From Macrolepiota albuminosa (Eukaryota; Basidiomycota; Agaricomycetes; Agaricales; Agaricaceae), in the NCBI GenBank assembly GCA_027475525.1, contig JAMWFC010000091.1, forward strand, positions 994,963-1,058,962: a DNA stretch of 64,000 bases. The letters are read 5' to 3'. A program made the position numbers and the translations under genes. Under the pieces are notes generated by a model, which ran no database searches, was not told where the DNA came from, and saw only the letters and a program-made list of their open reading frames with translations. This document shows, piece after piece, positions 3,347-53,169 of this stretch. Position 1 is the first letter of the stretch, and the number at the start of each line of letters is the position of its first letter.

Positions 3347-3380
3347 GTATCCGCTGCTAAGGTAGGGGACGTGAGGTACT
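3347..3380 (+). repeat. Candidate left terminal inverted repeat of DDE element
   Basis: The core TAAGGTAGGGGACG followed by GAGGTA and CGCAC recurs in inverted orientation at about 17608-17636, beyond the transposase start codon. About 30 bp match with a few mismatches. The pair brackets the transposase gene, as the terminal repeats of a cut-and-paste transposon would. A small palindrome (GGCAC...GTGCC, about 3315-3340) lies just outside. Exact element ends and target duplication were not resolved. Confidence 0.5.
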
Positions 3381-3472
3381 CGCACGCTTAGTCAGAATGC
3401 TTAGTAAGCATCAAGAGCGGCAAAAAAGCCAAGTTTCGAAAACCAAAAAAATTATATAGAGGATAGGAAAGA

Positions 3473-3612
3473 CTAGACAGCTCCAGATGACAGATAATAA
3501 GAAGCAATTTTCTTTTCATATTCCTCCTTCAGTTCCCTTGCAATTTCTGGAGGCAATGTACGATGTCCATGGTATTTCCGATTAGCCCAGGCTGCTTGTG
3601 GTCCTGTCAAAC
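3473..3612 (-). pseudogene. DDE transposase, C-terminal fragment beyond the insertion
   Basis: This encodes the last ~45 residues of the transposase whose main body is at 14562-17266, ending in a stop at 3473-3475. It carries the conserved tail motifs PQAAWANRKYHGHR and LPPE. When the Ty3 element and one copy of the CAAAC target duplication are removed, the frame runs on exactly from 14562 (residues ...DAYCQG | LTGPQAAW...). That shows the retrotransposon inserted into coding sequence of a pre-existing gene. Confidence 0.85.
3608..3612. repeat. Target-site duplication CAAAC, left copy
   Basis: Five bases directly before the 5' LTR. They are matched by CAAAC at 14480-14484 directly after the 3' LTR. 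Confidence 0.9.
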
Positions 3613-4339
3613 TGTCACGACCCCTCCCCTCCGGGCCCACCCCGGGACACTCCCGGAACACCCTCCGGGACCCTCCCTCCGACCCCACAGGACACGCCCC
3701 GCCATCACGAACGCCGACACCGCCATCACGCGCATCAAGGACCGCCATCAGCCGCCACCAGCCCCGATCAACGATCCCATCACGCATCACGCATCACGGC
3801 TCCACCCGCGCCAATTGATCGCGCGGCCCACACGCGCGATCCCGGTATACAGTCCCTGCCCGCTACTCAATGGCCCCCGGAACTCATCCTAGACACCCCG
3901 GAACCCCGAGACACGTTCCCGTAGTACTTATAGCATAGTTCCCTGTTGTATTCGCTAGTCTTGATATTACATACTTTGCATAACTGTTACTTGGATATTG
4001 CGTGCCCTCTGTTTGACTGGTACGCCTCGTTTGGTACGCTTCGACTGGCACGCCTTGGTATTCGCGTGCTATAAGTTTGGTACGCACTTCGCGACTCTTA
4101 AATTACTAACTTGGTCTCGTCTTAGAACCTCCGGTTCACGACTCGACCCCCTCTAACCCTCAGCTACTCTCATCCAAAACCCCCGGACTCTAGTCCCCTC
4201 TCCCGGGATTACTCCTGTCCTCGTCTTGAACCCCGGAGTCCTAGCCCCGGAGTTCCAGACACCCGAGTATCCGTAGATCAAGTCCGCATCGTAAGGGCGT
4301 CGCTTTCCCGGAAAGCCCCCGATTCAGCGGAACCTGACA
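3613..4339 (+). repeat. 5' LTR of family A copy 1
   Basis: 727 bp, TG...CA ends with the inverted terminal bases TGTCA/TGACA. It is GC-rich (about 57%) and CpG-rich. U3 should be 3613-3956 if R starts at the PBS-complementary motif at 3957. A TATA-like element lies at 3928-3933. The minus strand of the same LTR probably also feeds the antisense gene when present as the 3' LTR. Confidence 0.93.
3928..3969 (+). promoter_or_regulatory. Predicted LTR core promoter and transcript start
   Basis: A TATA-like TTATAG at 3928-3933 lies 27 nt before AGTCTTGATATTA (3957-3969). That 13-mer is the exact reverse complement of the PBS directly after the LTR. In self-priming retrotransposons such as Tf1, the first bases of the mRNA anneal to the PBS, so 3957 is the predicted +1. 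The 13-mer is kept in all six family A LTRs of the window (559-571, 3957-3969, 14097-14109, 43941-43953, 46870-46882, 55762-55774). Confidence 0.65.
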
Positions 4340-4352
4340 TAATATCAAGACT
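4340..4352 (+). other. Primer-binding site, self-priming type
   Basis: TAATATCAAGACT directly abuts the 5' LTR. It pairs over all 13 bases with 3957-3969 inside the LTR, and pairing stops at both ends. I see no obvious match to the 3' end of initiator tRNA-Met (which would start TGG). The same PBS is at 55387-55399 in copy 2 (minus strand). Confidence 0.7.
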
Positions 4353-4372
4353 CTTTCCTTACACCGTTCTTG

Positions 4373-6687
4373 ATGGCTACGTATACTCACACCTACTACC
4401 CCACGGGGTACCAGACCGACCCTTACGGACGCCCGGTACCCGACCACTACTCCGCACAGACCCCCCGCCCTGTCTACCCACCCCTCCCATACGAACCTCA
4501 GTACCTCCACCGCCACTGGGCCCCCGACCCATCCTTCTATGATCTGGGGCCCTCAGCCAGTTGGGCCCCTCCGCCCAACCTAGCCATGGCACGACCCGTG
4601 GAGGTCCCCTCGTACCGGAGCATTCCCGGGGGCCTGCCGGAGACCCCTCCTGTACCCAGTGGGCCTCGCCCGATTCCCCCCAGCGAGGGCCCCTTTGCAC
4701 CCACCCCCTACTACGGTTACCAGCGCCCCGTCCCCCAACCCCGAGAACCCCGAGGACCCCCCTACCCCGACTACCCCCCTCGTCATTACCCGGCCGCCGC
4801 TCCACCCGCTCGAACCCCTCCCTCGCCAATGGGACGACGACGCCTCGAGGAGTATGAACGGCAACGGGACGAGATACTCCGCTCCCTCAGGATCTCACCG
4901 GAGGACTTCGCGCAACGGACAAGGACGCTGCTTGTGGAGTTCGGGCACGACGACTTCGAAGGCACTCCGGAGGAATGGGCTCACTGCCTGGTCGAATTCG
5001 GGGATCGCCTCACGCGAGGAGAACTCCCGGAGCAAACCATGGTAAAGTATAGGCGCAATACGATCCTCTGGGAAGAATTACAACAGCTGCTCGACGAAGT
5101 CCACGCGTCCCCCTCCCCTCGGCCCCTCAACGACCCCGCGGACCCAGGTCGCTCGATTCACATTCGACGGGAACCCCCGGAACCGGCCCCAGCAGTCCCG
5201 GCAGCCCCCACGGTCCCCACTCCGGAGCAACGGCAACGGGAAGAACGGCAGAACGCCTCAGCCATACTACGGTCCCTCAACCCGACGGGAGGCCTCTTCG
5301 ATCAACCCGCTGCTCGCACGGTAGGCTTGTCAACTCGCCGCAGGGCTAACTCCGTTCCTAGTACCTTCGAGACCTGGGGACAGCCTCAAAGACCCCTGGA
5401 ACCCCTCCCGCGAACAGACAACGCCCGACCCCCGGCCCCGACGAACCCCGGTACAGCCCGGGTGGACACCCCTAGTACGGACGACACGTTATGCTACATT
5501 GACGAGCTCACGCGCGATAACAACGAACAACGTCCCGCGCCCGCGCCCGCCCCGGCACCAGCACCGCCCGCCACGTCCGCCCCGGCCCCTCCGGAACGCA
5601 ACTTCCGCCGCGATCCGCCACCCCACTTCGACCTACGGAACCCCCCGCGACCCCCGATGCAAGCCCGACCCTCCCGGATTGAACGTCCCCCGCGCAACCC
5701 GGCACCCGACCCAGCACCTAACCCCCCTCCGATCGACCCAACCCCACCAAACCCTCCCCGACCGCCTCCGCCCCCTCCCGCCGAACCTCGAGGACGACCC
5801 CCAGGACCCCCCCCTCCGCCGCCCCCTGCGTGGAGACCCGGGCCTCCTCCCGGCAGGAACGAGCCCCCGTGGGACAACGGGCCTCCCGGGCGTGGACCCC
5901 CAGGTGAGCCACCCGGAGGAGGTCCTCCCGGCGGGTGGGGCCCCGCCCTTGGTGCGTTTCCTCCTCAAGGAGGGGGGGGCAATCATTATTACTATTATTA
6001 CAATGCTGGCCCCCCTCCCCGCAACACTGCCGGATCGGACGACGCTCGCGACGCCCTCGCCCGCGAAGGACGATTGGACATTCAAAAGCCCGACGCTTTC
6101 ACGGGCCGGGACCCCCGAAAATGGCGTACCTTCCTCACACAATGTCTCAATACGTTTCAGGCAAAGCCGCTCACGTTTCAGGTTGACAGCTCCCGGGTGG
6201 CCTTTGCCGCGTCGTACCTCCAGGGGATCGCCTTCGATCACTACACGGCCCTCATCCAGTTCGACCCCAACAACCCGGCACTCGCTCGCTGGCAAGCCTT
6301 CGTCGACGAGTTCTCCGGGAAATTCGGGATATACGACACCGTGGCCGAGGCCGAGGACAACCTCTTCAACCTCCGGATGCGCTCTGAAGAACGTTTCACT
6401 ACCTTCATCGTACGTTTTGAAAAGGAAGCTTACGAGACAGGTTGGAATTACAGCGCCCTCCGGTACGCCCTCCGCCGCGCCCTCCCACAACGTATCAAGG
6501 ACGTCCTCCGACTCGCCCCGAAACAACCCTCCTACGACGGATACAAGGCCCTCGTCATGCAGATCGACCAGCGCTACTGGGAAGACCGCAGCGAGTATTC
6601 GAACCCTCCTACGACGGATACAAGGCCCTCGTCATGCAGATCGACCAGCGCTACTGGGAAGACCGCAGCGAGTATTCGAACTCCTGA
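4373..6687 (+). CDS. gag: Gag polyprotein (capsid part), frame broken by a 77-bp duplication
   Basis: Forms the virus-like particle shell in the cytoplasm. The ATG at 4373 is the first in frame and matches the start of copy 2 (55366, minus). Residues 1-150 are Pro/Tyr-rich. Residues ~155-260 hold a charged helical segment (RRRLEEYERQRDEILRSL). A long Pro-rich linker (to ~560) follows and ends at a poly-Tyr stretch. A conserved capsid-like domain of the Ty3 gag type starts at KPDAFTGRDPRKW, continues through AFDHYTALIQF and ends near WEDRSEYSNS. The frame shifts at the uncollapsed repeat (6525-6604 repeated at 6602-6681). Removing 77 bp restores one frame of 745 residues ending in UGA at 6685-6687. 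The UGA is followed in the same frame by the zinc-knuckle segment, so it is either a nonsense change or a readthrough stop. Confidence 0.85.
6525..6681 (+). repeat. 77-bp tandem duplication 1 (assembly type)
   Basis: 6525-6604 matches 6602-6681 exactly at offset 77. It duplicates the end of the capsid frame and shifts the reading frame by two. Copy 2 has a single copy here. Confidence 0.9.
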
Positions 6688-7176
6688 CCCCCCTGGAACC
6701 CTAGAGGAGGACCCCCTTGGCCCTCCGGCGAAGCTCCCAACCCCCAAGGTCGAAACCCCGGTCCCCCCGCGTTCCCTGGCGGCCGACCCCCGGTGAGTCG
6801 CGGCCCGCCCAATGCTAACCCCGGCAGCGGCACCCGCCCCCAGGCCCAGCTCAACGCCGCCGTGGCCACCCAAGACCCGGGCGACGCGCCAAGCCCCGAG
6901 GAACCCCCGGGAGACCCCGAAGACTTCGACTTCGACGACGAACGGGACGAGGAGGCCCTCCGAGCCAACCGGCTTCAAAAGAAGGGACGACCCTGGATCG
7001 AGGTCCCGACGGATGTGCAGGAACGACGGAGAAGGGAGGGCGTCTGCATACTCTGTGGTGAGAAAGATCATTTCATCTCCGAGTGCCCCAAACGACAGGT
7101 CATGGGACGTGCCACCTGGACCTTCGAAGGAGAGGACGCCACCTACGAGTATTCGGAAAACGACCCGGCGATTTAG
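6688..7176 (+). CDS. Gag nucleocapsid segment with CCHC zinc knuckle
   Basis: Continues the gag frame after the UGA. A Pro/Gly-rich stretch (NPQGRNPGPPAFPGG) leads to an acidic segment and the motif CILCGEKDHFISEC (about 7045-7087), a canonical CX2CX4HX4C zinc knuckle that binds genomic RNA. The frame ends at TAG 7174-7176. The only start the frame offers is non-ATG (GTG 6793), so expression probably depends on passing the UGA, or this segment is lost. The same knuckle is present in copy 2 (52813-53169, minus) and degraded at about 59190-59230. Pol overlaps this segment in the -1 frame from 7083. I found no canonical XXXYYYZ slippery heptamer in the correct frame. Confidence 0.75.
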   Translation, partial: PPWNPRGGPPWPSGEAPNPQGRNPGPPAFPGGRPPVSRGPPNANPGSGTRPQAQLNAAVATQDPGDAPSPEEPPGDPEDFDFDDERDEEALRANRLQKKGRPWIEVPTDVQERRRREGVCILCGEKDHFISECPKRQVMGRATWTFEGEDATYEYSENDPAI

Positions 7177-8210
7177 ACCCGGAAGACGCCCTAAATCGCG
7201 GAATCGACCCCGACGTCTTCTCCGCCCCGGTTTCCCACCTTCGCTCCACGACACTCGTACAGGACACCCTCACGGCTTACCTACCCTCCCACTCCTCGCA
7301 CTCCCTCCTCCTCAACACCCGCCTCACCCCCTCCGGAACCCCCCTCAACACCCTCGTCGACAGTGGCGCCACCGACAACTTCATCGACGAAGCATTGTCT
7401 GCCTTGGCCCCGGAACCCGCTCAACGACTCCCGGTCCCGGTACGACTCTGCCTCTTTGACGGAGACGCCTCCACGGCGGGGAACATCACCCATTTCGTGC
7501 GTATGCCCGTTACCTTCGCCAACGGACAGACTCACACCCTGCGGATGTTGATGACCAAACTTCACCCCTCCACACCCCTCGTCTTAGGGCTCCCATGGCT
7601 CCGGGACACCAACCCCCGCGTCGATTGGCGACACCTCACCCTTCGCCTGACCCGGGACCCGACGCCCGACGACCAACAACTTCCCTTCGACATCCCCCAC
7701 CCCCCAAGACCAACCCCGAAGGACTCCCCGGACGAACCCCCACCACCCCCGGGACTCCAGTCTCGCTCGTCCCGGTCCTTCGTCATCAATGCCAGGCTGG
7801 ACGGCACCCCCGGGCCGATATCGGCCCTCATCGACAGCGGAGCCACCGGGGTCTTCATCAGCGACACCCTCGACCTCCCTCACGACCCCCTCGACCAGCC
7901 CCTTCGCCTGCAGCGCCTCGACGGCACTCCCTCCGCCTCCGGCCCCATCAAGAGGTCTCATTCAGGACGCGTGACCCTGGACAACGGCTACGAGTTCACC
8001 TCCGACTTCCTGGTCACGCGACTTCACGAATCGACCCCGATGGTGCTGGGATTACCCTGGCTGCGCGACACAAACCCCGACATCGATTGGAGGACGCTCA
8101 CCATGACCTTCCCGGGACCCGAAGACCACCCCCCTGGCTGCGCGACACAAACCCCGACATCGATTGGAGGACGCTCACCATGACCTTCCCGGGACCCGAA
8201 GACCACCCCC
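7083..8210 (+). CDS. pol: Pol, tandem retropepsin (aspartic protease) region
   Basis: Two successive protease-like domains. The first has NTLVDSGATDNFIDEA (about 7347-7394) and ends with LVLGLPWLRDTNPRVDW. The second has SALIDSGATGVFISDT (about 7825-7868) and ends with MVLGLPWLRDTNPDIDW. Each keeps the catalytic DSGA and the C-terminal hydrophobic-Gly signature of retropepsins. A retropepsin acts as a homodimer of single domains, so two domains in one chain could form an intramolecular dimer or one may be accessory. Both domains recur in copy 2 and in the decayed element at 59.5-60.0 kb. The frame is broken by the 77-bp repeat at 8055-8210. A further -1 offset lies in the C-run 8206-8210, where copy 2 has one more base. 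Confidence 0.85.
8055..8210 (+). repeat. 77-bp tandem duplication 2 (assembly type)
   Basis: 8055-8133 matches 8132-8210 exactly at offset 77. It duplicates the end of the second protease domain. Copy 2 has a single copy. Confidence 0.9.
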
Positions 8211-10925
8211 GACCGCCGTGCACCTCCGAGCCCTAGGAGGCGACCCGACGCCCGACACCCCCGGGACGACTGCCGCGCCCCCCGCGCATGCCCCACCCAC
8301 GCCCGTCCGAGACCTCAAGGCCCCTGATCGACCCCCAAACATTCCTCGGAACAAGTACAAAGGGCCGAACTACCCCTGCCGGTCTCCGACACGCGTCACA
8401 CCCGCTCCGGCCGATGCCTCCGCGACCCCGACCGACCCGAGCGCACTCGACATCAAGATCATTGGGGCCGCCCCCTTCGCCCGCCTCATGAGGGACGGGA
8501 CTCCCACGTTTCAGCTGCACACCTCACCTTCTCTCCCGGAAGAACACCTACGAGGGGACGCCATTCCCCCGGAACAGAAAACCGAGGAGCAGATCCTCCG
8601 AGAAGTAGTTCCCCCGGAGTATCACGAGTTCGCTGACGTATTCTCCGAAGGAGACGCCAAGGAGATCCCCCCTCACCGCCCCTATGATCACACCATCGAC
8701 CTCGAGGAAGGAGCCACCCCCCCTTTCGGCAAGGTCTACAACATGTCGGAGGTCGAACTCCGGGCTCTCAAGGACTACCTCGACGAAATGCTCGGTAAAG
8801 GATTCATCCGACCCTCCGCCTCCGCCGCCGGAGCCCCGGTTCTATTCGCCAAGAAGAAGGACGGCTCGCTCCGACTCTGCGTCGACTACCGGGGACTCAA
8901 CAAGATCACCAAGAAGAACCGCTACCCGCTCCCGCTCATCGGCGATCTGGTCGATCGACTTCGCAGTGCCAAAGTCTACACGAAGATCGACCTCCGCTCC
9001 GGCTACAACAACGTCCGCATCGCCCCGGGACACGAGTGGAAAACCGCGTTCCGCACGCGGTATGGTCTGTTTGAGTACCTTGTGATGCCTTTCGGAATGA
9101 CTAACTCCCCCGCTACGTTCCAATACTTCATGAACGACATCTTCCACGACATGAGCGACGTCTTCGTGATCGTCTACCTGGACGACATCCTCATTTATTC
9201 CGACTCACCGGAGGATCACCAAAAGCATGTCCGGCAAGTCCTCGAGCGCCTCCGGGAGCACAATCTCCACGCCAAGCCCGAGAAGTGTTCATTCCATACG
9301 GAAGAGGTCGAGTATCTTGGCGTCATAGTATCCCCGAATGGCGTTCGCATGGACCCCCACAAGGTCGAGGCCATCGTCAACTGGCCGCAGCCCCGGAACG
9401 TCAAGGAAGTACAGTCCTTCCTGGGTTTCGCTAACTTCTACCGGAGGTTTATAGACAACTACTCCGGGATCACGAAACCCCTCAACCGGCTCACGCGCAA
9501 GGACATCGCCTGGAACTGGGACAGTAAGTGCCAGAGCGTCTTTAACTTGCTCAAGGAGGCTTTCACAGTCGCCCCGGTACTCCGGCACTACGACCCGGCC
9601 CTCCCGATCATCCTGGAATGTGACGCCTCCGACTACGCCATCGCCGGGATCCTCTCGCAGGTGGAACCTGACGGCGGGGAGCCCCGGCCAGTCGCCTTCT
9701 ACACCCGGTCCATGATCGACGCCGAACTCAACTACGACATCTACGACAAGGAGCTTCTCGCCATCGTCGAAGCCTTCAAGCAGTGGCGAGCCTACCTCGA
9801 GGGAGCCCGGCACCGGATCCAGGTCTATTCGGATCATAACAACCTGCAGTACTTCACCACGACCAAGCAACTCAGTCGACGACAGGCCCGATGGTCCGAG
9901 ATCCTCTCGGAATACGACTTCACGATCCAGTACCGCCCGGGACGACTTGGCGCCAAACCCGATGCCCTCACCCGTCGACCGGACGTCTACCCTAAGAAGT
10001 CATTCGAGGCGGAACGTAATGCGTTCAATCATCGCGTGGTGATCCCTCCCGAACATTTGAATGCCTTACTGATCTTAAACGAGGAAGGGACCCTGAGTCA
10101 GATTCGCCGCGCCCCCCGAGACAAGTACTTCACCGATCACGACCCCCGCAACCCCCCTGATGGAACCGACCGGGACCCCGCCTTCTCCCTGTCCCCCGAC
10201 GAAAAACTCCTCCTCCGGGACGGCCGCATCTACGTCCCGGATCACGCCCGACTTCGCTACGACGTCCTCCGTCAACACCACGACCACAAGCTCCGGGGAC
10301 ACCCTGGAATACGTAAGACCCTCCAGCTCATCTCCCGGACTTACTTTTGGCCAGGGTTGAAGAAGGACGTGACCCGTTACATTCGATCATGCGAGCCCTG
10401 CCTCCGGGCCAAGGTCCCCCGACACCGACCGTACGGACTCCTGAAACCCCTGCCGGTCGGACGACGCCCCTGGTCCTCAATATCTCTGGACCACATCGTC
10501 GAGCTCCCGGAATCTGAAGGGTTCGATGCCATTCTCGTCGTTGTGTGCAGGCTAACCAAACAGGGCATCTTCCTACCCTGCCACACCACGGATACCGCCC
10601 CGGACTTCGCCCGGCTGTTCCTCGAGCACGTCTTCGCCAAGCATGGTCTCCCGGACGACATCGTCTCCGACCGGGGCCCTCTCTTCGTGTCCAAGTTTTG
10701 GACTTCCCTGTGTAAGGCACTTGAAGTAAAGACTAACCTCTCTACCGCCTACCACCCCGAAACCGACGGCCAAACCGAAAGGGTCAACCAGTCCCTCGAG
10801 CAGTACCTCCGGCTGTACGTCAACTACTTGCAGGACGACTGGCGCGCCGAGCTCCCCCTGGCCGAGTTCACCTACAACAACACGCCACACTCTGCCACCG
10901 GGGTATCACCCTTCTTTGCCAACAA
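8211..10925 (+). CDS. pol: Pol: reverse transcriptase, RNase H and integrase core
   Basis: One frame from about 8164 to 10925 (read as ~920 residues). [23 protein letters not shown], then [10 protein letters not shown], then [14 protein letters not shown], then [12 protein letters not shown] with the catalytic YLDD. RNase [18 protein letters not shown], with RVQ-type [15 protein letters not shown] and [10 protein letters not shown]. Integrase: an HHCC zinc domain ([14 protein letters not shown]... CEPCLRAK), then the DDE core with [17 protein letters not shown] and [17 protein letters not shown], so all three acidic residues are present. It copies the element RNA into cDNA and inserts it. The frame is lost at the 77-bp repeat beginning 10849. 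The first part of the frame (before about 8450) is a Pro-rich linker joining the proteases to RT. Confidence 0.93.
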
Positions 10926-11002
10926 GAGCTCCCCCTGGCCGAGTTCACCTACAACAACACGCCACACTCTGCCACCGGGGTATCACCCTTCTTTGCCAAC
11001 AA
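10849..11002 (+). repeat. 77-bp tandem duplication 3 (assembly type)
   Basis: 10849-10925 matches 10926-11002 exactly, 77 bp at offset 77. It duplicates the integrase segment [18 protein letters not shown]. Confidence 0.9.
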
Positions 11003-11635
11003 AGGATACCACCCCGACTGACGCTCTCGCTCCGGGACATCCCGTCGCACGCCGCCCATGAGGTCGCCCGGGATCTCCAATCCCTTCACGAGTTTCTCCG
11101 GGAAGAGATCGACACCGCGAACCGGGCCTACGTGAAACACGCCGACCGGAAACGGGAAGACACCCCCGACTGGGCCCCCGGGACAAAGGTATGGTTAGAC
11201 CGACGACACCTCCGCACCCGCCGGCCCTCTCCAAAACTCGATCACAAGCGTCTCGGCCCGTTCAAAATATTGAAGAAGGTCTCATCCCACGCCTACAAGA
11301 TCGAGCTCCCCCCGGGACTAAAAGGTCTGCACCCGGTATTCCACGTCCGCCTCCTGGAACGACACCCCCCGGATCCCTTCCCTGAACGACGCCCCGAGCC
11401 CCCTCCCCCGGTCGAGGTCGAGGACGAGTACCACTACGAAGTCGAAGACATCCTCGACTCCCGGAACATTCGTGGACGACCCCACTTCCTCGTACGGTGG
11501 AAGGGATACGGCCCGGAAGACGACACTTGGGAGCCGCGCCGAAACCTCGATGGCGCCCCCGACAAACTCCGGGACTACCAACAGCGGCACCCGGGGAACG
11601 ACCTTCCCGGGCGCAGGACTCACAGACGGCAGTAG
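10926..11635 (+). CDS. pol: Pol: integrase C-terminal part and chromodomain
   Basis: Continuation of the integrase: an SRDIPSH-type linker, the GPF-like module ([20 protein letters not shown], then [13 protein letters not shown]), and a chromodomain ([33 protein letters not shown]) before the stop at 11633-11635. Chromodomains of this group bind histone marks, often methylated H3K9, and guide insertion into heterochromatin. That fits the dense transposon surroundings. The join to the upstream frame needs removal of the 77-bp repeat plus one extra C at the C-run near 11009-11012, where copy 2 has one more base. Confidence 0.9.
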
Positions 11636-11902
11636 TGGGCGTAACCCCCGCCTCTGGGATCAGTAGGGATTCAACTCCCATGTATATTTTCTGCTTTCCC
11701 TTTCTAGATCTTACTCTCTTTTAGTACTTTCTTCACAGTAACGCCCCGGATTCTGGGCAAGGTACACTTCCTCGTTTTTCCTGCCACTTTACTTACACCA
11801 TTTCGAGTACGAAACCGAGTATATACACTTTCTATTGCTACAAAATTCTACAGTATAGGGACAGAACAAGAAAAACGACACGACAAGAAAAAAGGGAACC
11901 CC

Positions 11903-13626
11903 CTAACGCTGGGGCCCCGGAACCTCCTCGCTCCCTTCTCCCTCCCCAGGCCACCCCCGGAACCCCTCCTCCCTCCCACCCGGGCCATGCTCCCGCAACG
12001 TCTCCTCCGCCAGTTGCTCCCAGGACGGCAGGGGCTCCCCCTCGTCCAAGACCCTCTCGAACCAAGAGCCCGGGGCCGGCACGTTTCTCCGCCGGTGGGC
12101 CGACACCACCCGCGCCAGCAAGCCGAGGCCCCGCTCCACCCCAGGGGTCGTCACCTCCGGGCGCTGGCCCTCCTGTAGCGAGGCCAGCGCCGCGGCAGCC
12201 CCATCCAGGAGCAGGCGGTGCTCCCGGGCCCAGCCTGGAGACGTTAGCAGACGAAGCAATTCGGGGACATGGGACTCACTGAGAGATGCCATGCGCGCGA
12301 CCACCACGTCACGGCGCAGAGCCTCCACCACCTCCTGTCCCGAGGGGGCCCTCTCCGGGATCCCCACTCCCTGCTCCAACCTCACCCGCAGCGCATCCCG
12401 CTCCGCCTCCGCCTCCCCCCGGGCGGTTCGGGCCTCCTCCAGCTGTCGACGCGCCTCCCGGCCCACCTCCAGCTCCCTCCGCACGTCGGCCTCCTCGGAC
12501 TCCCCCGGGCGCTCCAGCAGGACCCCCACGCCCGCCCCCAGGGGCCGCCCCGACAGAGGCGAAAATACCGCCGGGGACAAACGGGGCGGGGAAGCCGGGG
12601 GCGGGGTCTCTGAGGGCAGACGCGCCCTCTTCGATGGCCCCGGGGAGGGACTGGGCGACGCCCGCCGCTTCCCCTTGTCTGGCCGCCCCCCAGCCTGCCC
12701 CTGGAGACCGGACCGGGTGACCCGGCGCGTGATCAGCACCACGGGCCGGCCCCGGCCCCCTACCCGGACGACTCCCCTCCCTGCCCCTCCCGAACTACCC
12801 GCGGTCGCCCCCCCCGAACCCCCAGCTGGCACTTCCTCCGGGACCCCCTCCGGCTCCGCTACCCAGGTCCTCTCCTCCACCCCCATCCTCCGGGTCACTC
12901 CCTCCAACGGCCACCCCTGCTCCCGCGACGTACCGTACGCCCTCCACAGCGCCGAGACGGAACACCGCTCGTGATTGAGGCGGCACGCCTCGCACACTGA
13001 GGTGTCCCGTCGAGATGAGGGGGCCGGGGCTTCAAACAGGCAGGAGACCTGCCGGCGGGCGCAGTGGAGGCACTAGGCGAATCAGCTACGAAGGTCGGGA
13101 GCAAGAGACCACCTACCGGGCCATTGCTAACACACCAAGCATGGGACGGCAGGCCCCGGGGCCTCTCCAGGGCATGCTCGAATTGCTCCTGGGATACGCC
13201 CTCCCACGGGACGCGCCGATCCTCCGGGACCACGGAGATGGTCCCCGTGCCCATCCCGGACCGCCGGAAACGAGGAGCGACGAGACGAGGACGCGGGGAA
13301 GGGCGACGGCGCGGAGGGCGGACGGTCATCCGCGCAAAGGTAGGCGCGGGACGACCGGATGACGACGCCGGGGGGCCACCAGAGGCAGGCTCCGGAAGAC
13401 GGCTGGGACCCGCCTCCGGAGCGGGGGAAGATCGTTGTTCTGAAGGGGAAAAGTCAGCCGCGGTAAGCAGACCAGCACGAGAGCACTCACGTTGTTGTGC
13501 GAGCGCCGCCACGCGCTCCCGGTCAAGACGAACCCGGTAACGCGCATCCCGGGCTTCCCACGACATGAGGGGCGCGACCTCGTTCGTTTGCGGGGGCGTC
13601 GGGGAATGCGTAGGCGTACGCGACAT
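11903..13626 (-). CDS. Antisense spliced gene: paired CX2CX6C cluster and coiled-coil protein
   Basis: Minus strand, between pol and the 3' LTR. Proposed exons: 13491-13626, 13117-13439, 12280-13072, 11903-12234. Introns are 51, 44 and 45 nt, all GT...AG (GTGAGT, GTAGGT, GTGAGT donors), with branch-like GCTGAC, CTGAT and GCTAAC. Spliced length is 1584 nt, 527 residues. Start at 13626 (MSRTPTHS) matches copy 2 (47400). Residues ~154-195 hold CLHCARRQVSC, a 15-residue loop and CEACRLNHERC, resembling a Zn2Cys6 cluster with a long loop. A basic Ser/Pro segment (GKRRASPSPSP, SKRAR) and a heptad-rich, charged coiled-coil (about 330-390) follow. Copy 2 keeps strand, position, all six cysteines, the loop length and introns 2 and 3; intron 1 survives there only with a mutated donor. 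Function is unknown. DNA binding or regulation of the element is inference. Confidence 0.75.
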
Positions 13627-13739
13627 GGTTGAACTTGACGGTAAAATTTTTTTCGATACGTGGCAGGTCAGGTGCCGGATCCCACGGTTGACCCCGGTCC
13701 GAACCACCGGCTACGCGCGCCTCGGAGGGTCTCGGCGCT

Positions 13740-13752
13740 GAGGGGGGGGTGA
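13740..13752 (+). other. Polypurine tract
   Basis: GAGGGGGGGGTGA directly before the 3' LTR, the usual plus-strand primer position. It is conserved in copy 2 at about 47278-47290 (complement) and in family B as an AGGGGGTGA-type tract next to the LTRs at 43308 and 61023. Confidence 0.8.
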
Positions 13753-14479
13753 TGTCACGACCCCTCCCCTCCGGGCCCACCCCGGGACACTCCCGGAACA
13801 CCCTCCGGGACCCTCCCTCCGACCCCACAGGACACGCCCCGCCATCACGAACGCCGACACCGCCATCACGCGCATCAAGGACCGCCATCAGCCGCCACCA
13901 GCCCCGATCAACGATCCCATCACGCATCACGCATCACGGCTCCACCCGCGCCAATTGATCGCGCGGCCCACACGCGCGATCCCGGTATACAGTCCCTGCC
14001 CGCTACTCAATGGCCCCCGGAACTCATCCTAGACACCCCGGAACCCCGAGACACGTTCCCGTAGTACTTATAGCATAGTTCCCTGTTGTATTCGCTAGTC
14101 TTGATATTACATACTTTGCATAACTGTTACTTGGATATTGCGTGCCCTCTGTTTGACTGGTACGCCTCGTTTGGTACGCTTCGACTGGCACGCCTTGGTA
14201 TTCGCGTGCTATAAGTTTGGTACGCACTTCGCGACTCTTAAATTACTAACTTGGTCTCGTCTTAGAACCTCCGGTTCACGACTCGACCCCCTCTAACCCT
14301 CAGCTACTCTCATCCAAAACCCCCGGACTCTAGTCCCCTCTCCCGGGATTACTCCTGTCCTCGTCTTGAACCCCGGAGTCCTAGCCCCGGAGTTCCAGAC
14401 ACCCGAGTATCCGTAGATCAAGTCCGCATCGTAAGGGCGTCGCTTTCCCGGAAAGCCCCCGATTCAGCGGAACCTGACA
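13753..14479 (+). repeat. 3' LTR of family A copy 1
   Basis: 727 bp, no difference seen from the 5' LTR. It is followed by the target copy CAAAC (14480-14484). A 77-bp duplication then repeats the last part of the LTR plus the target site. Confidence 0.93.
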
Positions 14480-14561
14480 CAAACTATCCGTAGATCAAGT
14501 CCGCATCGTAAGGGCGTCGCTTTCCCGGAAAGCCCCCGATTCAGCGGAACCTGACACAAAC
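14408..14561 (+). repeat. 77-bp tandem duplication 4 (assembly type)
   Basis: 14408-14484 matches 14485-14561 exactly. It spans the LTR end and the CAAAC target site, so the LTR tail and target copy appear twice. Confidence 0.9.
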
Positions 14562-14755: not shown

Positions 14756-14909
14756 AGTTTGGCAGCACCCCAGTACTGCTCTATAAAGTTGAGCTCACAG
14801 TGGTACTTGGGGTAAAAATCGCAAAGGTGCCCAGTTTGGCAGCACCCCAGTACTGCTCTATAAAGTTGAGCTCACAGTGGTACTTGGGGTAAAAATCGCA
14901 AAGGTGCCC
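14756..14909 (-). repeat. 77-bp tandem duplication 5 (assembly type)
   Basis: 14756-14832 matches 14833-14909 exactly, within the transposase catalytic-Glu region. Confidence 0.9.
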
Positions 14910-15159: not shown

Positions 15160-15312
15160 TCATACCAACCCTGCCTCATTTTAGGACCATCCTTCTTGTA
15201 CCGCCATGTTTCATGGGGATTTTTAGGCATGTACCATCATACCAACCCTGCCTCATTTTAGGACCATCCTTCTTGTACCGCCATGTTTCATGGGGATTTT
15301 TAGGCATGTACC
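15160..15312 (-). repeat. 77-bp-period tandem duplication 6 (assembly type)
   Basis: 15160-15235 matches 15237-15312 exactly (76 bp, offset 77), within the transposase around MPKNPHETWRYKKDGPK. Confidence 0.9.
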
Positions 15313-17607: not shown

Positions 17608-17636
17608 GGTGCGGGTACCTCGCGTCCCCTACCTTA
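17608..17636 (-). repeat. Candidate right terminal inverted repeat of DDE element
   Basis: GTGCGGGTACCTCGCGTCCC and the following TACCTTA are the inverted partner of 3347-3380. Just inside the adjoining repeat is a palindrome GGGACAAAGTGTCCC (about 17660-17675). Confidence 0.5.
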
Positions 17637-17734
17637 CCACCGCAGCTGCCCCTGCGCACGGGACAAAGTGTCCCTTCCCCAAATAAATTATACTGCATTC
17701 TCATTTCTGGACTGCTACTTCAACCCAGCCTTAT
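17635..17734 (+). repeat. 100-bp direct repeat, copy 1
   Basis: TACCACCGCAGCTGCCCCTG through CCCAGCCTTAT. It is repeated at 18826-18925 with equal length and about seven substitutions. It abuts the right end of the DDE element, so it may be that family's outer terminus. Confidence 0.75.
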
Positions 17735-40260: not shown

Positions 40261-40429
40261 AGAGTATGTTACTACTAGTATGTGAGGGATCTGATAACGC
40301 CCGTTATCAGTGTGATAGTCATATAAAAGTTACACAAATATTGGCATCAGAATTGTCCCCTCTGTGTAGAGTCAGATTCTACTCTAATCTCTTAGGTCTC
40401 AGTGTGAAATATATTCCAAAATACCTTGG

Positions 40430-40760
40430 TTAGGACTGACAACTTTTATATTGGTGGTATGAGTCCTTAATTTTGTGATATTTTAAATTTAATTTTGAGC
40501 CTTTTCTGATTGGTCAATCATTATATTCCAAGTTGTCTCCTCTGTCTAGATTCAGATTCTACTGTAATCCTTTAGATCTCACTGTAAAATATCTTCCAAA
40601 ATACCTTGGCTAGGACTGACAACTCTCACTTTGATAGTACAAGCCCTTAATTCTGTGATATTCTGCATTTGATTTTGAGCATTTTTTGACTAGTCGATCA
40701 TTATGTTCCAGGTTGTCCTCTCTGCTCAAAGTCAGAATCTGCTTTATTTAATTAGTCAAT
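40430..40760 (+). repeat. Tandem repeat, unit about 175 bp
   Basis: Two adjacent units sharing AAATACCTTGG-TAGGACTGACAA and CTCTGTCTAGATTCAGATTC. A third unit lies at about 42620-42790, just before a family B LTR. AT-rich, no coding frame. Confidence 0.6.
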
Positions 40761-46506: not shown

Positions 46507-47277
46507 TGTCAGGTTCCGCTGAGTCGGGGGATTTCTGGGAAAGCAATGCCCTTACAATGTGGACTTGATCTACGGATACTCGGGTGTCTGGAACTCCGGA
46601 GCTAGGACTCCGGGGTTCAAGACACAGGCAAGGGTAATCCCAGGAGAGGAGACTCGGTCCAGGGGTTTTGGGTTGTGAGTAGCTAGGGGATTGGGTGGAG
46701 GTCGAGTCGTGAACCGGAGGTTCTAAGATGAGACCAAGTTAGCAAGTTAAAGTTGCAAAGTACGTACCAAACTTAGAGCACGCGGTTATTCAAGCGTGCC
46801 AGTCAAAAGCTTGCCAGTCAGTGCGTACCAATCAAGCAAAGGGCACGCAACAATCAAAGTTATCCAAGTTAATATCAAGACTAGTGAATACAACGGGGGA
46901 CTATGCTATAAGTACTACGGGGCCAGGTCTTGGGGTTCCGGGGTGTCTGGGATAAGTCCCGGGAGGCATTGAGTAGCGGACAGTGACTGAATACCTGGAT
47001 CGCGCGTGGGGCGCACAATCAATTGACGTGAAGGGAGCTGTGATGTGTGATGCGTGATGGCCGGAAGCGAGCCGTGTGATCCAATCGTTGATGACAGCTG
47101 GTTCTGGGGTTCATGAAGCAGGGTCTCCGGGGGTGCTGGCTGATGGCGGTCTTTGATGCGTGTGATGGCGGCGTCAGCAGCTGTGGGGGCGGGGCATGCT
47201 GTGGGTTGACGAAGGAGGCTCTCAGATGGGGCTCCAGGGATGCCCCCAGGGGGTTCTGGAGGGGAGGGGTCATGACA
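46507..47277 (-). repeat. 3' LTR of family A copy 2
   Basis: TGTCAGG on plus to ATGACA. 771 bp. Transitions against its partner at 55400-56169. The R-start 13-mer is at 46870-46882 (complement). Confidence 0.88.
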
Positions 47278-47399
47278 TCACCCCCCCTCAGCGCCGAGAC
47301 CCTCCAAGGCACGCGTAGCCGGCGGTCTGGGCCAGGGTCCAGGTGTGGGATCCGTCGCATGTCCTGACACGTATCAAAATTTTTCCCATCAAACTCAAC

Positions 47400-49188
47400 A
47401 TGTCGTGTACACCAATGCATTCCCCGACGCCCCCACCTACTGACGAAGTCGCACCCCTTGTTGTGTGGGAGGCCTGGGACGCCCGGTATCGGCGCTGCCT
47501 GGATTGGGAGTGCATCATGGCGCTCTTCCAGCAACATAGGTGCATTCATGTGTTCTTGCTTGGCACGATCAACCCCCCCTGTTTTAGAACAACAAAACGC
47601 ACCTGCCGGAGACTATCTCCAAGGCAGACCCGGCCAGTCTCTCGGCGTCGGTTCCCAGATCGGTTCCTCAGGTGGGCTCCAGTCGTCCCATGCCCACTGT
47701 CGTGCGGATGACTGTCTGGCCTCCCCGCCCTCCTTCCTCACCTCGTCCTTGTCTGGCCGCCCCACGTTTTTGTTGGTCAGGGATGGCCCCTGGTACCATA
47801 TTGACGGTTCTGGAGGACCTGCATATCCCATAGGTGGTTGTGTTGCAGTTGTTGTTTGAGCAGGCCCTTGAGAGGCCCCAGCGGTTGCCCACCCATGCGT
47901 GGTGCATCAGCAACGGGCTGGTAAGTGACGTCGTACCTTGTGGTCGCCGCTAACGCCAACCCAGTGTGTGCACTGTGCTTGTCGGCTGGTGCAGTGTCTT
48001 TTCGAGGCCTCCAGCCCATCGTCCTGGAGGGACTCGTTGGTGTGCGAGGCATGTTACCTTAACCACGAGCGATGTTCCGTTTTGGCGTTATGGAGGGCGT
48101 GCTGTATGGCGTGGAAGCAGGGGTGGCCGTTGGGGGGGGTGATGCACAGGATGGGGGTGGAGGAGAGAGACTGGGTGGTTGAGCCGCCGATGGGAGTGCC
48201 AGGGGGTTCCAGGGGGGACGGGGCCCTGACGAGGGGGTCTCAGATGAGGGGGGTGGCGGGGGTAGGTAGTCGGAGCCGGCCCGTGGTCCTGGTCATGCGC
48301 TGGGCAACCCAGGCCAGGATGAGCGGGGGGGTCGTGTTGACAAGGGAAAGCGGCGGGCGTTGCCCAGTCCTTCCCCCGGGCCTTCCAAGCAGCTGCAACT
48401 TTCCCAGGAGGCCCCCTTCCCGACCTCTCCCCTGCGTCTGTCCCCAGCGGCGTTCTCCCCCTTGTTGGGGCGGCACTGCAGGAGTGCGTGGACCGGGCCG
48501 AGCAGGAGAGGGGGAAGCTGGCCAACCACCACCAGGTCACGGCTGAGCAATTGCAGGGGGTTTGGATGACCCTGGCTCAGAGCGAGGAGGCAGTGATGCA
48601 GGAGGCAGCAGCTCGGCGGTGGGTGGAGGAGGACTGGGGGGCAGTAGTCTGGGAGCTGCAGGAGATTTGGGTTGCACGGGGGGCATTGGAGGCCGAGCGG
48701 GACACGTTGCAAGCCCGGCTGGAGCAGGGGGCGGGCCATCCAGAGCCGGCCCCTCAGAGCTTGCAGAACGTGGTCGTCGCCCAGATGGCGGCTTTAAGTG
48801 AGTGGTTTGAGCCGCTTTCTTGAGTCCCCGCACTGATTTTCCAGGTTGGGCCTGGGAGCACTGCCTGCTCCTGAACAGGGTGGCTGCGGCATTAGCCTCC
48901 TTGCAGGAGAGTCAGTGGCCCAAACTGGCAACCCCCGAGGTGGAGCGTGGGCTGGACTTGTTGGGGAGATTGGTCTTGGCGCACCGGCAGAGGAACGTCC
49001 CAGCGCCGGGGACCTGGTTTGAGAGGGTCCTGGATGAGGGCAAGTCTCTCCCAACCTGGGACCAGCTGATGGAGGAGGCATCGCGAGAGTACGTTCCGGG
49101 GGAGCGGGAGAGGGAGGAGCCCCGGGGTTGGCCGTCGAGGTCCAGCGGGGGCAAGGATGGGGAGGGGGGCCCAGAGACCCCTCACTAG
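47400..49188 (+). pseudogene. Antisense spliced gene of copy 2 (paired CX2CX6C protein)
   Basis: Counterpart of 11903-13626, again antisense to gag-pol and placed between pol and the 3' LTR. Start MSCTPMHSPTPPPTDEVAPL at 47400. Intron 1 has lost its GT donor, but its TTTTAG acceptor remains (about 47577). Intron 2 (GTAAGT ... CAACCCAG, about 47922-47964) is canonical. Intron 3 (GTGAGT ... TTTTCCAG, about 48797-48844) is canonical and contains an in-frame stop, which supports splicing. The cluster CVHCACRLVQC, a 15-residue loop and CEACYLNHERC keeps all six cysteines. The coiled-coil is longer here (EQERGKLANHH, WVEEDWGAVVWELQE, LEAERDTLQARLEQ). Broken by a Trp to TAG change in exon 2 and frameshifts in exon 3. 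Ends PETPH at 49188. Confidence 0.72.
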
Positions 49189-49479
49189 CGGGTCCTTCTT
49201 CGAACTTTCTTGGTAGCTACGTCATGTGTCCTATATTGTAAGGTAGCGAGTCTTGTAACAAAATGTATATACTTGTTCTGCCGGAGTAAGTAAAAAGGAA
49301 TAGTGTAAGTGATTTGGCCAGAAGGTTGGAAAGAGACCTTCCTCCGATCCTGGGCACTGCTGTGAAAAAAGGTACTAAAAGGGAGTAAGATCTAGAGAGG
49401 AAGGGCAGAGAATATATATGGGAGTTGAATCTCTACTGAGCCCAGAGGTGGGGGTTACGCCCACTACTGCCGTCTGTGG

Positions 49480-51600
49480 GTCCTGCGCCCTGGGGGGTCG
49501 TTTATCGGGTGCCGCTGCTAGAAGTTCCAGAGTTTGTTGAGGGCGCCTTCAAGGTTTCGGCGCGGTTCCCAAGTGTCGTCCTCTGGGCCGTATCCCTTCC
49601 ACCATACGAGGAAGTGGGGTTGTCCACGGATGTTCCGGGAGTCGAGGATGTCTTCAACCTTGTAGTGGTACTCGTCCTTGACCTTGACCGGGAGAGGGGG
49701 TTTGGGCCATTGTTCAGAGAAGGGATCCGGGGGGTGTTGTTCCAGGAGGCGGACGTGGAATACCGGGTGCAGGCCTTTAAGTCCAGTCAGGGGTGGTATC
49801 CCTTGTTGGCAAAGAAGGGTGATATTCCGGTAGCAGAGTGCAGCGTGTTGTTGTAGGTGAACTCGGCCAGGGGGAGCTCGGCGTGCCAGTCGTCCTGCAA
49901 GTAGTTGACGTACAGTCAGAGGTACTGCTCAAGAGACTGGTGGCCAGGGGGAGCTCGGCGTGCCAGTCGTCCTGCAAGTAGTTGACGTACAGTCAGAGGT
50001 ACTGCTCAAGAGACTGGTTGACCCTTTTGGTTTGACCATCGGTTTCGGAGTGGTTGTCTCGGGGGGCGCAGCGGATCTGGCTCAGGGTTCCTTCGTCATT
50101 TAAGATTAGTACGGCATTCAGATGTTTGGGAAGAATCATCACGTGATGATTTAATGCATTGCGTTCTGCCTTGAACGACTTCTTGGAATAGACGTCCGGT
50201 TGGCAGGTAAGGGCATCGGGTTTAGCTTCAAGTCATCCCAGGCGGTACTAGATTGTGAAGTCATACTCTGAGAGGATCTTGGACCATCGGGCCTGCCGTC
50301 GACTAAGTTGCTTGGTCGTGGTGAAGTACTGCAGGTTATTGTGATCCGAGTAGACCTGGATCCGGTGCCAGGCTCCCTCAGGGTACGCTCGCCATTGTTT
50401 GAAGGCTTCAACGATGGCGAGGAGCTCCTTGTCGTAGATGTCATAGTTGAGCTCGGCGTCGATCATGGACTGGGTGTAGAATGCGACTGGCTGGGGCTCC
50501 CCACTGTCAGATCCCATCTGTGAGAGAATCCCAGCAATGGCATAGTTGGAGGCGTTGCATTCTAGGATAATCGGGAGGGCCGGGTCGTAGTGCCAGAGTA
50601 CGGGGGCGACTGTGAAAGCCTCCTTGAGCAGGTTAAAGATGCTTTGGCACTTACTGTCCCAGTTCCAGGCAACGTCCTTGCATGTGAGCCGGTTGAGGGG
50701 TTTTGTGATACCGGAGTAGTTGTCTATAAACCTCCGGTAGAAGTTAGCGAAACCCAAGAAGGATTGTACTTCCTTGACGTTCCAGGGTTGCAGCCAGTTG
50801 ACGATAGCCTCGACCTTGTGGGGGTCCATGCGAACGCTATTCGGGGATACGATGACGCCGAGATACTCAACCTCTTCCGTGTGGAATGAACACTTCTCAG
50901 GCTTGGCATGGAGGTTATGCTCATGGAGGCGTTCAAGGACTTGCCGGACGTGCTTCTGGTGGTCCTCCTTTGAGTCGGAGTAGATGAGTGCAGACGTTGT
51001 TGTAGCCGGAGCGGAGGTCGATCTTTGTGTAAACCTTGGCACTGTGGAGTCGATCGACCAGATCGCTGATGAGTGGGAGCAGGTAGCGGTTCTTCTTGGT
51101 AATCTTATTGAGTCCCTGGTAGTCAATGCAGAGTCGGAGCGAACTGTCTTTCTTCTTGGCGAATAGAACCAGGGCTCCGGCAGCAGAGGCAGAGGGTTGG
51201 ATGAATCCCTTACCGAGCATTTCATCGAGGTAGTCCTTCAGGGCCCGGAGTTTGACTTCCGACATGTTGTACACCTTGCTGAAAGGGGGGGCGGCTCCTT
51301 CCTTGAGATCGATAGTATGGTCATAGGGGCGGTGAGGGGGAATCTCCTTGGCGTCTCCTTTGGAGAATATGTCAGCGAACTTGTGATACTCCGGGGGAAC
51401 TACTTCTCGGAGAATCTGCTCCTCGGTTTTCTTTTCCAGGGGAATAGTGTCCCCTCGTAGATGTTCTTCCGGGAGAGACAGCGAGGTGTGTAGCTGAAAC
51501 GTGGGTGTTCTATCCTTCATGAGGTGGGCGAAGGGGGCGGCTCCAATGATCCTAATGTCGAGTGCATTCAGATTGATCAGAGTCACGGACACATCAGCCG
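49480..51600 (-). pseudogene. pol: Copy 2 pol: RT, RNase H, integrase remnant, chromodomain
   Basis: Minus strand. RT N-terminal part 50990-51592 ([51 protein letters not shown]), then a deletion removing the FGMTN and YLDD blocks, then [14 protein letters not shown] and RNase H to about 50230 ([19 protein letters not shown], where Asp to Asn changes remove active-site acids). Integrase is reduced to [20 protein letters not shown] near 49990-50060. The chromodomain ([20 protein letters not shown]) lies near 49560-49680. A 77-bp duplication lies within (49865-50018). Confidence 0.82.
49865..50018 (-). repeat. 77-bp tandem duplication 7 (assembly type)
   Basis: 49865-49941 matches 49942-50018 exactly, 77 bp at offset 77, in the integrase remnant. 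Confidence 0.9.
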
Positions 51601-51689
51601 GAGCGGGTTTGACGCGTGTCTGAGACCAGCCAGGGTAGTTCGGCCCTTTGTATTTGTTCCGAGGGATGTTTGGGGGTCGATTAGGGGCC

Positions 51690-52740
51690 TTGCGGGCTCA
51701 GACAGGCATGGGGGGCGCAGTTGTTGTCCTGGGGGTGTCGGGCATCGGGTCGCTCCCTAGGGCCCGGAGGTGCACAGCGGTCGAAGTGTGGTTTTTGGGT
51801 CCCGGGAAGGTCATGGTGAGCGTCTTCCAATCGATGTCGGGGTTCGTCTCGCGCAGCCAGGGTAGTCCCAGCACCATTGGAGTTGATTCGTGAAGTTGCG
51901 TGACCAGGAAGTTGGAGGTGAATTTGTAGTCGTTGTCCAGGGTCACGTGTCCTGAGTGAGACTTCTGGATGGGGCCAGAGGAGGAGGGGGTGCCGTCGAG
52001 GCGTTGCAGGCGGAGGGGCTGGTCGAGGGAGTTGTGGGGGAGGTCGAGGGCGTCGCTGATGAAAACTCCGGTGGCTCCGCTGTCAATGAGAGCCGATATC
52101 AATCCCGGGGCGCCGTCCAGCCTGGCATTGATGATGAAGGACCGGGACGAGCGGGACTGGAGTCTGGGGGGTGGTGGGGGCCCGTCCTTTGGGGTAGGAT
52201 TTGGAGAGTGGGGGATGTCGAAGGGGAGTTGCTGGTCGTCGGGTATTGGGTCCCGGGTCAGGCAAAGGGTAAGATGTCGCCAATCGATGCAAGGGTTGGT
52301 GTCTCGGAGCCACGGGAGCCCTAGGACCAGGAATGTGGAAGGGTGGAGTTTGGTTATCAACATCCGGAGGGTATGAGTCTGTCCGTTGGCGAAAGTAACA
52401 GGCATACACACAAAGTGAGTGATGTCTCCTGCCATAGAGATGTCTCTGTCAAAGAGGCAGAGCTGTACCGGGAGCGGGAGTCGTTGAGCGGGTTCCGGGG
52501 CTAAGGTAGACAATGTCTTGTCAATGAAGTTGTTGGTGGCGCCACTGTCGACAAGGGTGTTAAGGGGGATTCTGGAGGGGGTGAGGCGGGTGTTGAGGAG
52601 GAGGGAATGCGAGGAGTGGGAGGGTAGGTAAGTCGTGAGGGTGTCCTGTGCGAGTGTCGTGGAACAAAGATGGGAAACTGGGGCGGAGAAGACGTCGGAG
52701 TTGATTCCGCGATTTAGGGCGTCTTCCAGGTCTAAATCGC
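51690..52740 (-). pseudogene. pol: Copy 2 pol: tandem retropepsins
   Basis: First domain LVDSGATNNFIDK (about 52510-52560) ending VLGLPWLRDTNPCIDW. Second domain ALIDSGATGVFISDA (about 52040-52090) ending VLGLPWLRETNPDIDWK. Both DSGA motifs survive although the rest of the element is decayed. The frame continues from the second protease into the linker ([10 protein letters not shown]), unlike copy 1. That shows copy 1 lacks one base in its C-run at 8206-8210. Confidence 0.82.
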
Positions 52741-52812
52741 TGGGTCATTTTCCGAATACTCGTAGGTGGCATCCTCCCCTTTGAAGGTCCAGGTGGCACG
52801 TTCCATGACCTG

Positions 52813-53169
52813 TCATTGGGGGCACTCGGAGATGAAATGGTCTTTCTCACCACAGAGTATGCAAACACCCTCTCTTCTCCGTCGTTCCTGCACATTCTTC
52901 GGGACCTCAACCCAGGGTCGCCCCTTTTTCAAGAGCTGGTTGGCCCGGAGGGCCTCTTCGTCCTGTTTGTCAGTGAAGTCAGGATCTTCAGAGTCTTCCG
53001 GGGGTTTCTCGGGGTTTGGCGCGTCGCCCGGGTCGTTGGCGGCCACAGCGGCGTTGAGTTGGGCCTGGGGGCGGGCGCCACTGCCGGGGTTAGTATTGGG
53101 CGGGCCGCGACTCACCAGGGGTCGGCCACCAGGAAACACGGGAGGGCCAGGGTTTTGCTGGAGGGCCAT
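52813..53169 (-). pseudogene. Copy 2 gag zinc-knuckle segment
   Basis: Encodes RGPPNTNPGSGARPQAQLNA and then CILCGEKDHFISEC, an intact CX2CX4HX4C knuckle, ending in TGA. A 22-bp length difference upstream puts it out of frame with the capsid part. Confidence 0.75.

Follow-up and report, generated by a model that had tools for sequence, protein, structure and literature searches.

A three-intron antisense gene with a Zn2Cys6-like cysteine cluster in a Ty3 chromovirus family of the fungus Macrolepiota albuminosa

Long terminal repeat (LTR) retrotransposons are usually seen as intron-less gag-pol elements. In this study we describe a family of Ty3 chromoviruses in the basidiomycete Macrolepiota albuminosa in which a gene with three introns lies antisense to pol, between its chromodomain end and the 3' LTR, and encodes a protein with a Zn2Cys6-like cysteine cluster. 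The gene was followed from a window of 64 kb (assembly GCA_027475525.1, contig JAMWFC010000091.1, positions 994,963 to 1,058,962 of the forward strand), where its element occupies 3613-14479, through the genome of which the window is a part, 100 Mb in 129 contigs. Plant elements are already known to carry antisense genes between pol and the 3' LTR, and the antisense open reading frames (ORFs) of the Ty3 elements maize Grande (gene23), rice RIRE2 and Silene Retand are the kind compared here. In the available text of two sources, Grande gene23 has its own promoter, and a trans-acting regulator role is proposed for the antisense genes of Grande and Retand (PMC11963269, PMC7264820). These are plant elements, and Retand is a non-chromovirus in the available text of PMC11963269, whereas the element described here is fungal and has a chromodomain. 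The fungal gene further has three introns and a Zn2Cys6-like cluster, and the available text of PMC7264820 on the plant ORFs contains neither the word intron nor the word zinc. PF04195 (Retand TRP28) is not among the matches of the fungal protein at E up to 5, in a Pfam scan whose filters drop most matches above E ~0.1.

Among animal retroviruses, HBZ of human T-cell leukaemia virus type 1 (HTLV-1), compared here together with the APH proteins, is the product of a minus-strand gene that is expressed from the 3' LTR, is spliced and encodes a nuclear regulator, according to the available text of PMC10186651. The sequence here is compatible with these HBZ-like traits of a spliced 3' LTR transcript and a nuclear protein. 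HBZ differs in being a bZIP protein, whereas the fungal gene has a cysteine cluster and four exons, and no bZIP family was found by the same filtered Pfam scan. Additional ORFs in fungal elements are on record. A figure legend of Novikova et al. 2010 (PMC2864245) marks one of unknown function in fungal full-length elements and in one from a spikemoss; the available text of that paper does not contain the word antisense and states no orientation. The review PMC12786077, in the part available, cites fungal LTR elements with additional ORFs (its references 56-58). No fungal antisense gene between pol and the 3' LTR was found described in the literature searched, and three introns, a cysteine cluster and a diverged cassette are features found in no source of that literature. 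We lean towards the view that the element encodes a nuclear, DNA-binding regulator of its own, which would act in trans on element copies and recombine as a cassette.

On the minus strand from 13626 to 11903, four exons splice to 1584 nt, encoding 527 residues and a stop (Table 1). An earlier note on this DNA had proposed this four-exon gene, with introns of 51, 44 and 45 nt and canonical borders, and we confirm it, with GT..AG at all three introns. In the window copy the reading frame by itself requires only the removal of intron 2, because introns 1 and 3 contain no stop and have lengths divisible by three. We took 40 gene loci from the genome by similarity to the window gene and aligned 24, leaving out 16 that were partial, duplicate or broken by an assembly joint. 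Across these 24 copies, intron 1 (49-51 nt) starts with GT in 19, AT in four and GC in one and ends with AG in all, intron 2 (44-50 nt) is GT..AG in all, and intron 3 (44-48 nt) starts with GT in all and ends with AG in 23. Between intact copies introns 1 and 2 differ by non-multiples of three (50 or 51 nt, and 44, 45 or 48 nt) while the spliced frame is still open. Intron 3 measures 45 nt in all four intact copies, with lengths of 44, 46 and 48 nt only in broken ones, so its support comes from splice-site conservation and from Termitomyces. Clean loss of intron 2 was seen in none of the 51 loci readable on both flanks; the gap there is at least 44 nt in 50 of them and 26 nt in one (L052). Introns in this position can survive the RNA cycle, because the genomic RNA carries them antisense.

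A protein search returned 14 hypothetical proteins of Termitomyces (E 1e-6 to 1e-34, local identity 29-41%). Their matches respect the intron borders: those of intron 2 coincide exactly with the end of similarity at 13117 in 7/14 proteins and with its start at 13072 in 9/14, and similarity resumes at 12232, the border of intron 3, in 5/14. Other matches are off by a few codons (for example 13132) or cross intron 3 as a single gapped alignment. All three introns are supported by the other copies and by Termitomyces taken together. Three of the proteins (P0002, P0003 and P0004) run on into protein encoded antisense to pol (E 8e-8 to 4e-27, window 11521-10831), with a weak continuation of the same sort in P0006; we read the three as annotation fusions of the antisense gene with antisense pol. 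This continuation indicates that the gene lies tail to tail with pol in Termitomyces too. Beyond Termitomyces, protein searches gave only the 292-residue P0015, and the absence of homologues elsewhere is a limited negative, because only the 7991 best word-sharing candidates, or 44, were scored. There was no match in viral contigs.

The same layout recurs across the M. albuminosa genome. A 129-residue gene probe gave 279 matches, and the 150 listed merge into at least 145 loci; a pol probe gave at least 150 rows among the matches listed. Among these listed matches, the gene lies on the opposite strand and downstream of pol in 58 of the 59 gene loci with a pol row within 3 kb, the exception being a locus on contig C45 where gene and pol stand in a different order. 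Direct reading of 53 loci, which include duplicates and the window's own copy, found a pol end opposite the gene in 52, bearing out the antisense position in other copies for which the earlier note had suggested a check. These 53 include a random sample of 12 from the 86 gene loci for which no pol neighbour was listed, and 11 of the 12 have pol; at the remaining one, L043, the gene adjoins an LTR, and the ~8 kb downstream contain only a distant pol-like match of 24% identity. Conversely, eight of the 92 pol rows with no gene listed beside them were sampled at random, and all eight, among them the window's own, carry the gene. The 52 antisense loci and the Termitomyces gene models together support the earlier proposal of an element-borne, protein-coding gene with introns. 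The introns and the cysteine cluster do look cellular, as they would in a host gene captured recently and carried as a passenger. We reject this as the principal explanation and consider it the least probable of those weighed here, given the antisense layout at read and randomly drawn loci alike, the same place implied by the Termitomyces models, and selection across deep divergence. Ancient capture of a host gene is possible as the origin. Eight matches in the genome share identical scores and query range (on C77, C85, C107 (two), C110, C114, C122 and C126); they may stem from a recent burst or from a single repeat contig that was placed repeatedly.

The ratio of nonsynonymous to synonymous divergence (dN/dS) indicates that the protein itself is maintained. 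Among the 24 aligned copies the frame is intact in five, which represent four distinct sequences (L003, L006, L012 and L031), and dN/dS is 0.27-0.33 in all six pairs of these four. Values near 1 and a lack of conservation beyond recent copies had been named as outcomes that would speak against the gene; we found neither. In the same pairs, four of the five other frames give 1.09-1.89, and the fifth, on the opposite strand, gives 0.40-0.47, which we take to reflect wobble positions shared with the gene. By region, in the five intact pairs other than L006-L012, dN/dS is lowest in the zinc core (residues 148-196, 0.04-0.12), followed by 0.12-0.27 in the C-terminus, 0.17-0.29 in the N-terminus and 0.37-0.48 in the linker. 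None of the seven cysteines of the cluster region varies in the 41-42 distinct copies that can be read there, copies among which many arginine codons have turned into tryptophan, glutamine, cysteine or stop. These comparisons argue that the gene is protein-coding and under purifying selection, more than chance would give. A sense-strand gene as the cause of the conservation was rejected: each sense frame has 4-11 stops in the four intact copies, although one is open for 355, 435 and 423 codons in L003, L006 and L012 and for only 178 in L031. The selection data bear equally on the view that the antisense RNA itself is functional, through double-stranded RNA and RNA interference or a Ty1-like control, with the reading frame incidental. 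By its position alone, such an RNA would overlap the genomic RNA of the sense strand, and Ty1 antisense control RNAs are known (available text of PMC12786077); the low dN/dS, invariant cysteines, kept splice sites and Termitomyces homologues lead us to disfavour this view as very improbable.

From N- to C-terminus the predicted protein has a Ser/Pro-rich start, the cysteine motif, a WRA...EQGW segment, a basic KGKRRASPSPSPGPSKRAR stretch, a probable coiled coil and a WAREHRLLLDG C-terminus. The two CX2CX6C halves with a 15-residue loop reported earlier are present, and a seventh conserved cysteine was found upstream, giving the full motif C-X5-C-X2-C-X6-C-X15-C-X2-C-X6-C; this motif followed by WRA...EQGW is common to the Termitomyces homologues. 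Usual Zn2Cys6 loops span 5-12 residues. The earlier remark that usual loops are shorter stands with a qualification, as the loop of AlcR has 16 residues (profile match E 1.3, not significant). Fungal Zn2Cys6 factors such as AlcR share the six cysteines arranged as CX2CX6C halves; unlike them, the protein here has a Pfam score below cut-off, an extra cysteine upstream, a coil ~145 residues away and no other Pfam domain, and its gene is carried by a retrotransposon. Zn_clus (PF00172) is the sole Pfam family matched by the whole protein. Of 16 domain sequences, 11 hit it as well, though weakly (best E 0.035), and two unrelated families are matched by one domain sequence each. The basic Ser/Pro stretch noted before maps to residues 286-304, which we take to be like a bipartite nuclear localization signal (NLS). 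The coiled coil noted with it has indirect support: an AlphaFold2 model of the Termitomyces homologue P0001 has one long helix at 312-409, with a predicted local distance difference test score (pLDDT) of 83-96 over 321-400, and is confident for that helix only. Because the Pfam and Protein Data Bank (PDB) matches are weak and the model is confident for the long helix alone, Zn2Cys6-like is to be read as a motif-level description. One locus (L049:1279-2177) lacks residues 123-237, the zinc region, with ~5 bp between the flanks; no other locus sharing this junction was found, and the zinc-less copy is a single case.

The gene is also more diverged than the element around it. Distances between modules were measured in 21 copies, the window's and 20 others chosen by gene similarity (210 pairs). 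Mean p-distance is 0.09 in pol, 0.12 in both the leader and the LTR start, 0.21-0.26 in the exons and 0.30 in the spacer, the most diverged part. Median dS is 0.626 in the gene against 0.217 in pol, and larger in the gene in 194 of the 210 pairs, so that silent sites of the gene are about three times as diverged between copies as those of pol. Against the window copy, p is 0.14-0.36 in the introns, 0.14-0.32 in the spacer and 0.04-0.19 in the LTR start. Since the noncoding introns and spacer are far more diverged than the LTR start, relaxed protein constraint is not the whole cause, with the caveat that the LTR start, as a promoter, may be constrained.

Over the 21 copies there is almost no correlation between the pairwise distances of pol, gene and LTR (r -0.09 to 0.31), set against r 0.71 for leader and LTR. 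The pattern holds in the 17 copies without visible joints, where r is 0.04-0.13 for pol and gene (Mantel p 0.33 and 0.085), 0.01 for pol and LTR, 0.72 for leader and LTR, and 0.58 for the two halves of the gene; the N-terminal half correlates weakly, at 0.23 with the leader (p 0.018) and at 0.19 with the LTR (p 0.038). The 126-bp leader and the LTR start thus behave as one less diverged module. Recombination between elements would be the simplest cause of these separate histories, and assembly chimeras are the main caveat. We interpret the gene as a deeply diverged cassette that recombines between element subfamilies sharing similar pol and LTRs. These distances also bear on a role in integration targeting or in the pre-integration complex, in which the protein would work with the integrase chromodomain. 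A chromodomain pol does adjoin the gene for a putative nuclear DNA-binding protein, and Vicient and Casacuberta 2020 (available text of PMC7264820) raise nuclear entry of the pre-integration complex for the plant antisense ORFs. A separately transcribed antisense mRNA would, however, be an odd supply route for a particle component, and the near absence of correlation between gene and pol distances speaks against close co-evolution with the integrase; we judge this role quite improbable.

We propose that the antisense transcript would start in the 3' LTR or the 126-bp leader and be spliced by the host. The product would be a nuclear protein by way of its bipartite basic stretch, would dimerise through the coiled coil and would bind DNA through the Zn2Cys6-like cluster. 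It would then act in trans on element copies, most likely by tuning LTR transcription through feedback repression or activation, in the manner of HBZ/APH proteins in HTLV, the target promoter and the direction of action being what we infer. Nuclear signal, metal cluster, dimerising coil and a fixed antisense position beside the LTR together suggest such a trans-acting regulator. A part as DNA-binding regulator or targeting factor, with a promoter at the 3' LTR, as the earlier note had put it, is plausible from these features.

Several observations weigh against this proposal. Most aligned copies (19/24) are broken. Zn_clus scores 12.3 bits with the whole protein and 13.5 with the domain piece against a cut-off of 21; the six-cysteine pattern of PF00172 (CX2CX6C-loop-CX2CX6-8C) is present, and the score of its curated profile is not reached. 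A PDB search with the domain profile gave one entry, the AlcR zinc cluster, without significance, and paired the two cluster halves in swapped order; whole-protein PDB matches were to complexin-1 only, in the coiled-coil region (E 0.59 and 0.78). The P0001 model is poor overall (mean pLDDT 56.7, predicted template modelling score 0.30) and not confident in the zinc region (pLDDT 41-49). Among the Termitomyces proteins, P0005 has tyrosine for one cluster cysteine, and P0010 and P0014 lack part of the cluster. In the coil dN/dS runs from 0 to 0.58, the top value occurring in one pair, a ratio made unstable by few changes. Paired CGG triplets are not enriched in the LTR or leader, where their number is close to chance; the LTR is enriched in TCCGGG/CCCGGA, but so is pol.

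The strongest rival is an anti-silencing or chromatin factor that would bind element DNA and counter host methylation or heterochromatin, as VANC proteins do for VANDAL transposons. Cysteine cluster, basic stretch and coiled coil would suit it equally well, and the deep diversity of the cassette would be in keeping with a contest against the host. Of 23 copies compared, 21 have TpG/CpA at CpG sites of the window copy more often than they show the same change at its other C/G sites (1.1- to 2.3-fold), which hints at methylation-linked decay. This excess is small, however, takes a single copy rather than an ancestor as its reference, and is absent in the near copies L001 and L004, and the Pfam scan gave no other family; we regard the anti-silencing role as unlikely. 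Returning to the trans-acting regulator, a tentative extension, which we hold to be unlikely, is that the gene is a swappable specificity cassette with a logic like that of a phage immunity region, its many old alleles, each under selection for function, being kept by frequency-dependent selection and reassorted among elements with similar pol and LTRs. If so, each element family would control its own copies, or escape control by host or rivals, through its own regulator.

The host element in the window has Ty3-order pol domains, a C-terminal chromodomain, LTRs and a target-site duplication. Its assignment to the chromoviruses follows from a pol with reverse transcriptase, RNase H and integrase followed by a Tf2-like SH3 domain and a chromodomain; the integrase core scores 27.7 bits against a Pfam cut-off of 32.6, and the other named pol domains lie above their cut-offs. 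Three perfect 77-bp tandem duplications lie within the element (6525, 8055 and 10849), and a fourth spans the end of the 3' LTR (14408). They resemble k-mer assembly joints, and the identity of the two LTRs is therefore weak evidence of youth. Over the window, perfect tandem duplications of 76-77 bp occur at 6525-6678, 8055-8208, 10849-11002, 14408-14561, 14756-14909, 15160-15312 and 49865-50018; they probably mark assembly joints where overlaps of k = 77 were retained in duplicate, and those inside gag-pol, of which there are several, call for no biological reading. A second, degraded Ty3 element lies on the minus strand at 46509-55975, between flanking repeats near 46509 and 55402 that are 94-95% similar, and has the same gene and pol layout at 47.4-50 kb. 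Other repeats are inverted arms of 34 bp around the first element (3352-3385 and 17609-17642, 88% complementary), a 100-bp direct repeat at 17635 and 18826, and a 180-bp tandem repeat at 40353-40740 (2.2 copies, with a diverged third copy near 42641).

Table 1. Positions of the chromovirus, its antisense gene and a second gene copy in the window (strand. where none applies; RT, reverse transcriptase; UTR, untranslated region)
Feature	Position	Strand	Basis or remark
Target-site duplication CAAAC, left	3608..3612	.	
5' LTR, 727 bp, TG...CA	3613..4339	+	No mismatch with 3' LTR over 727 bp
pol: RT, RNase H, integrase zinc-binding domain, integrase core	8239..10848	+	Pfam
pol C-terminus: Tf2-1-like SH3 domain and chromodomain	10916..11635	+	Pfam
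Spacer between convergent stop codons of pol and antisense gene	11636..11902	.	
Exon 4, conserved C-terminus (WAREHRLLLDG...), stop at 11905-11903	11903..12234	-	
Intron 3, 45 nt	12235..12279	-	GT..AG in window copy
Exon 3	12280..13072	-	
Probable coiled-coil region, residues 336-417	12281..12526	-	Helix in P0001 model; loose, gapped alignment to P0001
Basic Ser/Pro stretch, residues 286-304, bipartite NLS-like	12620..12676	-	Conserved in Termitomyces
Cluster C-X2-C-X6-C-X15-C-X2-C-X6-C, residues 154-190	12962..13072	-	Same spacing in Termitomyces, with exceptions
Intron 2, 44 nt, splits zinc-cluster region	13073..13116	-	GT..AG in window copy
Exon 2; Cys148 at 13134-13132	13117..13439	-	
Intron 1, 51 nt	13440..13490	-	GT..AG in window copy
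Exon 1, ATG at 13626-13624	13491..13626	-	Alignment of 24 copies
Leader, 3' LTR to ATG, with G-rich polypurine-like tract; candidate antisense promoter/5' UTR	13627..13752 (126 bp)	-	
3' LTR	13753..14479	+	
Target-site duplication CAAAC, right	14480..14484	.	Same five bases as left
Degraded homologue of antisense gene, in second, oppositely oriented element	47400..49182	+	

Our data describe a fungal retrotransposon family, with at least 145 gene loci in a 100-Mb genome, that keeps a three-intron, selected, probable transcription-factor gene antisense to its pol. With it, fungal chromoviruses join plant elements and HTLV as carriers of antisense accessory genes. It also shows that transposon genes stand behind some of the Termitomyces models annotated as hypothetical proteins, three of which read on into antisense pol. 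Collectively, gene, pol and LTR differ in depth and have nearly independent histories, which makes the idea of reassorting regulatory cassettes in retroelements a testable one.
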